Source: Arenicola marina
Lineage: Eukaryota; Annelida; Polychaeta; Arenicolidae
Direction: 5' to 3'
Assembly: GCA_964019135.1 (NCBI GenBank)
Contig: OZ025255.1
Coordinates: 7,440,001 to 7,504,000, forward strand
DNA: 64,000 nucleotides
A program made the position numbers and the translations under genes. The notes beneath the pieces were generated by a model. That model saw nothing but the letters and a program-made list of their open reading frames with translations, searched no databases and was not told the DNA's origin. Shown piece by piece: positions 26,190 to 64,000 of this stretch. Position 1 is the stretch's first letter; the number at the start of each line of letters is the position of its first letter.

Positions 26190-26734
26190 CTACTGCTGGT
26201 TGGCGCCAGTCAAGGGTTTCGAGAACTGAGAGGGGGGGAGGTGCGTCAAGGCGGCGCGCGCCTTCCGGAAGTTGGGCTGCCGGCTGGCCTGAGAGGAGTT
26301 GGCCGAGGACAGGTGGACTGGTGCCGCCGCCTCGGACACCCCGGACACCACCGACAAATTGGTCATGGAGCTGGGGGGTGACACGTGGGAGGGATTCTCC
26401 ACGTCGTCCTGGTAACCGTCGTTCATGGCGCCCAGCCCCTGGGTGTCGATGGAGTTGATGGAGCCGCTGAGGCTGCCGAACTCGATGGACCGGCCGCTCG
26501 CGCCACTCGTCGACTCAGTCTCCAGCGAGTAGTCGCGGCGCCAGCGACGATACGTCACAATACCCAGCGATACCAGGGCCACCGTCACTATGACGACCCA
26601 GGCGATGAGTGCGATGAGGCTGACTTGCATGGTGCCGGCCTGGCCCGTCAGGTCTTTGATTTCCTGGTTGACGAGCTCGTCGTGTTCGTTGTACCGCTTG
26701 TCCGTCTGGCTGGCGGCCACGCCTGGGTCACCGG
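26190..26734 (-). CDS. Transmembrane collagen: last exon (juxtamembrane, membrane helix, cytoplasmic tail)
   Basis: The acceptor CACCCTCCCAG precedes 26734; the frame continues as [20 protein letters not shown] and ends at a TAG (26190-26192). A charged juxtamembrane stretch leads to a membrane helix ([20 protein letters not shown] and a few more residues) closed by the stop-transfer cluster YRRWRR. The tail of about 115 residues is rich in Ser, Asn and Gln, with an acidic patch ([11 protein letters not shown]), and has no motif I can name. The positive residues after the helix place this tail in the cytoplasm. Poly(A) site is not settled. Confidence 0.85.

Positions 26735-64000: not shown

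Follow-up and report, generated by a model that had tools for sequence, protein, structure and literature searches.

The window analysed here, a stretch of 64,000 nucleotides, is most likely animal DNA, judging by its introns and its EGF and collagen exons, and carries a predicted collagen gene on its minus strand, which runs from 64000 to 26190 in 20 exons and is read in a single open frame; its first exon is truncated at the window edge, and the 5' end of the gene lies beyond the window, upstream of 64000. The original prediction had placed a collagen helix, EGF modules, a membrane helix and a cytoplasmic tail in this order, and all four are encoded in this order in the one minus-strand frame. 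The helix enters the window with five exons (64000-63874, cut by the edge, 62897-62466, 62218-61814, 61578-60994 and 60636-60088) that contain 233 uninterrupted Gly-X-Y triplets, with GT-AG introns in phase 1. From 57278 to 26190 there are 15 further exons, which encode 3149 residues without a stop and are separated by 14 introns that are all GT-AG and phase 1. The first of these is a helix exon of 18 triplets (57117-57278), followed by an intron of 11,360 nt (45757-57116) that consists mainly of a 66-bp satellite in about 160 copies. Eight helix exons with 909 triplets come next (45756-45415, 45039-44851, 44668-43823, 43538-42747, 42393-40225, 40007-38766, 38503-36839 and 36567-35614) and share their contig with the membrane exon. 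At the helix end lies an optional 18-nt exon, GINGTE (35237-35254), which is a weak and very short candidate that can be skipped with the frame kept; four EGF-type exons and the membrane exon then complete the gene. Each splice site of the intact helix exons splits a Gly codon between its first and second bases. The lengths of all 18 internal exons are multiples of 3 and those of all 13 internal helix exons are multiples of 9 nt, which makes a chance origin of the exon structure very unlikely, judged from these counts. We regard the architecture, taken as a genomic frame, as highly probable.

Two assembly gaps of 200 N lie in the window, at 15240-15439 and 56458-56657. The latter is inside the 11,360-nt intron, with the 18-triplet exon on its 5' side, and the 5' exons are therefore joined to the rest of the gene by scaffolding only. 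Between the five 5' exons and the 18-triplet exon, two damaged helix exons were found on the minus strand, at about 58506-58293 and 58157-57755 (3' ends approximate), which we kept outside the spliced counts. Each contains two frame changes of one base apiece, and the first also has Val in place of one Gly. By eye, G runs coincide with or adjoin three of the four shifts but not the fourth; both exons are 1.1-1.8 kb from the contig end at the gap, and the shifts are likely to be sequencing errors near that end. At the likely donor, both damaged exons close with GGTCGGTG, which is unusual, and if their ends are phase 1, both could be skipped with the frame kept.

The window also holds very long minisatellite arrays. 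Outside the collagen gene, they cover 1-10516 (56 bp), 10950-12837 (72 bp) and 13228-15237 (35 bp), and within its introns they cover 27296-29287 (35 bp), 45869-56457 (66 bp) and 58607-59948 (42 bp). The 66-bp array yields false open reading frames, of which the longest listed has 3102 residues and spans the gap as X, and the region 23086-23658 holds a GC-rich 13-bp array (23233-23615) with long Pro/Gly/Arg-rich open reading frames in several frames and on both strands. An exon-like open reading frame at 12872-13228 on the minus strand matches the cation transport protein family TIGR00898 (E 1.6e-30, below the whole-protein cut-off) and Pfam Sugar_tr (1.7e-05, above cut-off). It resembles an SLC22-type organic cation transporter and may belong to the gene that follows the collagen gene downstream. 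Polyadenylation-like hexamers are scattered over the region and are undiagnostic for gene ends, and searches of the window DNA for Rfam families and tRNA genes returned none.

Length and composition of the helix

A six-frame scan for runs of at least 8 triplets with Gly in every third position found 18 runs, every one of them minus-strand and within 64000 to 35633, which sum to 1232 triplets. The original prediction of at least 1,230 triplets agrees with this raw sum, but the sum includes the damaged exons and a few codons past splice sites, and the figure falls to 1161 when the 14 intact helix exons are spliced. The predicted length of about 1 µm or more is borne out by the intact exons, which correspond to about 1.0 µm. 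Given a rise of 0.286 nm per residue in collagen, the 909 triplets on the contig of the membrane exon (911 if the out-of-register end groups LAG and DFG are included) make 909 x 3 x 0.286 nm, or about 0.78 µm, without crossing the gap; a fibrillar collagen helix has about 338 triplets. The intact exons contain a single register break, of two residues, at the extreme helix end, two triplets from its close.

Across the 1161 triplets, the Y position is occupied by Thr in 62.4% (724/1161), Ser in 11.8%, Gln in 6.4% and Pro in 2.1%, and the X position by Ala in 21.2%, Pro in 20.9% and Ser in 17.1%. The last helix exon (36567-35614) deviates with 44% Thr and 8% Pro at Y, and it is this one exon to which the Pfam Collagen match of 3.2e-47 refers. 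In nine of the 14 helix exons, Thr is encoded by ACC (188), ACA (60), ACG (231) and ACT (133), and Gly likewise by all four of its codons; such mixed synonymous codons rule out that the Thr pattern is the product of a microsatellite. Among five paralogous helix exons of the 14, dN/dS was between 0.17 and 0.31 in all ten pairs, values that are only indicative, because the alignments are of low complexity and pS is 0.53-0.68, near saturation. Together, the mixed synonymous codons and the low dN/dS suggest that the Gly-X-Thr pattern is maintained at the protein level. The helix contains one Lys, one Tyr, one Trp and no Cys. With a single Lys and no Cys, cross-links within the helix by lysyl oxidase or disulphides are hardly possible, so that packing more probably relies on side chains and sugars.

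The order of the triplets was compared with 500 within-exon shuffles at twelve distances. Identical triplets are commoner at distance 4, that is 12 residues (z 5.9, reached by 0 of 500 shuffles), with a mild excess at distance 8 (z 2.4, 5 of 500 shuffles), and are rarer at distances 1, 2 and 10 (z -4.5, -5.4 and -3.1). Perhaps the four-triplet period reflects lateral packing or the spacing of a glycosyltransferase. A separate observation concerns PDB, where the third-closest match of the helix piece is 8zxl_X, a chain of 780 residues named spindlefibril/axialfibril.

The region after the helix

The four exons that follow the helix in frame are of EGF type. EGF-like exon 1 (32774-32917) has six cysteines whose pattern, C-x4-C-x3-C-x14-C-x-C-x14-C, has EGF spacing by eye; it lies outside the best Pfam stretches, and its predicted structure, with a mean pLDDT of 53.5, is of low confidence and too poor for a fold search. 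Exon 2 (32312-32434) is of the FXa_inhibition type (Pfam 6.2e-13) and matches EGF modules in PDB with a best E of 8.1e-08, while exon 3 (29672-29809) is of the cEGF type (Pfam 8.5e-10); both Pfam matches are above cut-off. Exon 4 (27137-27256) starts with DVDEC as in calcium-binding EGF modules and has four cysteines, the last two being absent by eye, and its EGF_CA match is below cut-off. Among the best 60 of 106 PDB matches of the C-terminal region (E up to 0.01) are coagulation factors IX, X and VII, protein C, LRP6, LRP4 and the LDL receptor, all with EGF modules. COLFI, the C-propeptide family, gave no Pfam match at E up to 1 in the 369 residues that begin at the helix end. A fibrillar collagen was thereby ruled out, and the introns and EGF modules ruled out a bacterial or viral collagen-like protein.

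The last exon (26190-26734), read in frame, encodes a stalk, the membrane helix and, from RRWRR to the TAG stop, the Ser-rich tail that had been proposed, with 119 residues, 23 Ser and no Cys. The membrane helix is the single segment with a hydropathy above 1.6 in the 3149 residues, with a maximum of 2.79. Its 15 following residues include 4 basic and 3 acidic ones and its 15 preceding residues 1 basic and 2 acidic ones, a modest positive-inside bias that leans to type I topology. A single-sequence structure prediction of this exon (mean pLDDT 59.3) gave one helix from residue 4 to 69, which spans stalk and membrane; the tail is nearly devoid of predicted helix. TMEM154 was matched below the Pfam cut-off (E 0.29), and NCBIfam returned no matches for the tail. 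By eye, the stalk has a KR pair only and no RxxR furin site, so that release by cleavage is conjecture. Relatives of the EGF-membrane-tail region were searched for in IMG/VR, where 7 stretches matched the pattern, and in prokaryote genomes, where 43 did; none of either set was confirmed.

Comparison with known collagens

The closest likeness is to the annelid cuticle collagens, whose helix is several times the fibrillar length; here, 909 triplets lie on one contig and 1161 in the intact exons. Annelid cuticle collagen is about 2.4 µm long, and in the Riftia type the stabilizing positions are reportedly, going by a title of Mann from 1996, dominated by glycosylated threonine and not by hydroxyproline. 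The stabilizing position is Y. The available part of one source describes annelid cuticle collagens as having a very long helix and globular domains, with glycosylated Thr in Riftia that is termed species-specific (PMC11766948), and collagen fibres are the main component of the Riftia cuticle, as far as the accessible text of another source goes (PMC8789280). The Thr-dominated Y position, 724/1161 here, is a likeness to the Riftia type in particular. The EGF-type exons that follow the helix in frame may be the counterpart of the globular end domain, although this equivalence is putative. A difference is that a membrane anchor is not described for annelid cuticle collagens in the available sources; here it is known from a partial gene.

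Giant annelid collagens of 7719-8859 residues, with a similar size in Eisenia andrei, have also been reported, and Pro occupies 21.5-33.3% of the Y positions in the giant alvinellid and earthworm collagens (PMC12403961 Table 1). Within the available text of this source, the siboglinid predictions include no such long collagen, and Pro at Y stands at 36.2% in the longest Riftia collagen that it lists (PMC12403961). The alvinellid and Eisenia andrei giants share thousands of Gly-X-Y residues with the gene described here, but their share of Pro at Y stands against 2.1%, and by composition this gene is therefore not simply an orthologue of the alvinellid or earthworm giants.

As a membrane-spanning collagen, the product would resemble the MACITs (XIII, XXIII, XXV and COL-99), which to our knowledge have no EGF modules. 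In the MACITs the helix is interrupted and C-terminal to the membrane, in type II topology, according to the part of the source at hand (PMC4678570). Here the membrane helix is encoded 3' of the helix exons, which agrees with the predicted reversal of the order of the known membrane collagens; the collagen helix is N-terminal to the membrane and, the damaged exons being uncounted, runs uninterrupted through the intact exons as far as its end. The MACITs also have a conserved C-terminal two-cysteine motif, whereas the 119 C-terminal residues here lack Cys. Because MACITs have not been identified in Annelida or Mollusca, as far as the available text states (PMC4678570), a different membrane collagen in these groups would not duplicate them. 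The cuticle collagens of C. elegans offer a likeness of another kind, since about two thirds of them are predicted to be made as membrane-anchored precursors; however, these are of type II, mostly shorter than 350 residues, with an interrupted helix and a furin site near the N-terminus (PMC11304992, available portions). MUP-4 and MUA-3, matrilin-like apical membrane proteins, are likewise of EGF type and are proposed in the same portions to link the cuticle to the cell (PMC11304992). The gene differs from these two in its helix. We know of no collagen helix in either protein.

A probable anchored precursor and its alternatives

We consider it somewhat probable, at roughly 0.55, that the gene encodes a giant cuticle-type collagen of an invertebrate, most likely an annelid, that is made as a type I membrane-anchored precursor by the mechanism proposed here; its size and its Thr-rich helix, both read from sequence, resemble those of annelid cuticle collagens, and its EGF-type end region may match their globular one. 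In epidermal cells, a putative signal peptide encoded upstream of the window would direct the chain into the secretory pathway, where the C-terminal membrane helix would keep three chains next to one another in the membrane. The stalk and the disulphide-bonded EGF cluster may fix the register of the chains, the role of the C-propeptide in fibrillar collagens, and folding of the helix would then start at the C-terminus and proceed outward. O-glycosylated Thr at the Y position would stabilise the helix in place of hydroxyproline. The rod would be shown at the apical membrane and then become part of the cuticle, with its tether intact or cut in the stalk or EGF region. The readings that follow overlap with this one in places, as a tether or another animal does, and our probabilities do not sum to one.

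A bolder version, which we hold to be less probable, would make the gene a member of a so far unknown class of type I membrane collagens, in which a giant Gly-X-Thr rod is permanently continuous with the cytoplasmic tail, so that one molecule would reach from the interior of an epidermal cell through the membrane to the outer cuticle over one to several micrometres and the anchor would be the trimerisation site too. A related and rather doubtful alternative, which is in line with the original prediction and overlaps with the tethered version of the cuticle precursor, is that the rod is never released and serves as a load-bearing strut. This strut would start at a cytoplasmic adaptor on the Ser-rich tail, pass through the membrane and the EGF cluster, and end in outer layers, of a cuticle or a glycocalyx, that lie at least a micrometre away. 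Such a permanent tether is consistent with an in-frame membrane helix followed by 119 tail residues, 23 of them Ser, and with a stalk that lacks an RxxR furin site; however, the tail carries no recognised binding motif, by eye or by Pfam above cut-off, is mostly without predicted structure, and has no confirmed relatives in IMG/VR or prokaryote genomes.

It is unlikely that the same architecture belongs to a non-annelid animal and serves another coat, such as an egg coat, a larval surface, mucus or a shell matrix. Thr-rich collagens occur outside annelids too, and a bacterial BclA chain is a weak PDB match to the helix (E 4.2e-06), but the combination of length, Thr-rich helix and globular end region is the description of annelid cuticle collagens (PMC11766948, available part).

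Still less probable, in our judgement, are two transcription units or isoforms, namely a secreted giant collagen that ends near 35.6 kb and a small EGF membrane protein that starts from near 32.4 kb. Of the 19 exons tested, 6 have an in-frame Met before the acceptor with no stop between, and on the minus strand a short, largely hydrophobic stretch follows the Met at 57278 (11 residues upstream), 42393 and 32434 (15 residues upstream). Hydrophobic residues are, however, expected before acceptors when the polypyrimidine tract is translated; these signal-peptide-like stretches were therefore set aside, and possible alternative first exons at 57278, 42393 and 32434 are not indicated. The exons at 32917, 29809 and 27256 (EGF 1, 3 and 4) and at 26734 have no upstream in-frame Met, the last helix exon read into its intron meets an early stop with no C-propeptide after it, and the intron phases are consistent throughout. 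Finally, a decayed gene or an assembly artefact, as the four one-base frameshifts and the Gly-to-Val change in two adjacent exons and the gap within the large intron could suggest, is very improbable, because the 20 other exons carry 11,547 nt of coding sequence without frameshift or stop, the five exons compared have a low dN/dS, and the damaged exons are near a contig end with three of their four shifts at or beside G runs.

To return to the anchored cuticle precursor, what might be new in it is the C-terminal membrane anchor. The original prediction had spoken of an undescribed system, which does not hold for micrometre-long collagens as such, since these are already known; as to the anchor, no collagen with a C-terminal one was found among the matches listed, which cover open-access literature, and this scope gives its novelty weak support. 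If the precursor reading is right, the locus would provide a gene-level architecture for a class of giant collagens known mainly from biochemistry, and a natural long helix in which Thr substitutes for hydroxyproline. Three chains of many thousand residues would find their register without a C-propeptide, held together in the membrane. The precursor reading would further suggest that membrane-anchored cuticle collagens arose twice in worm-like animals, as type II proteins in nematodes and as a type I protein here.
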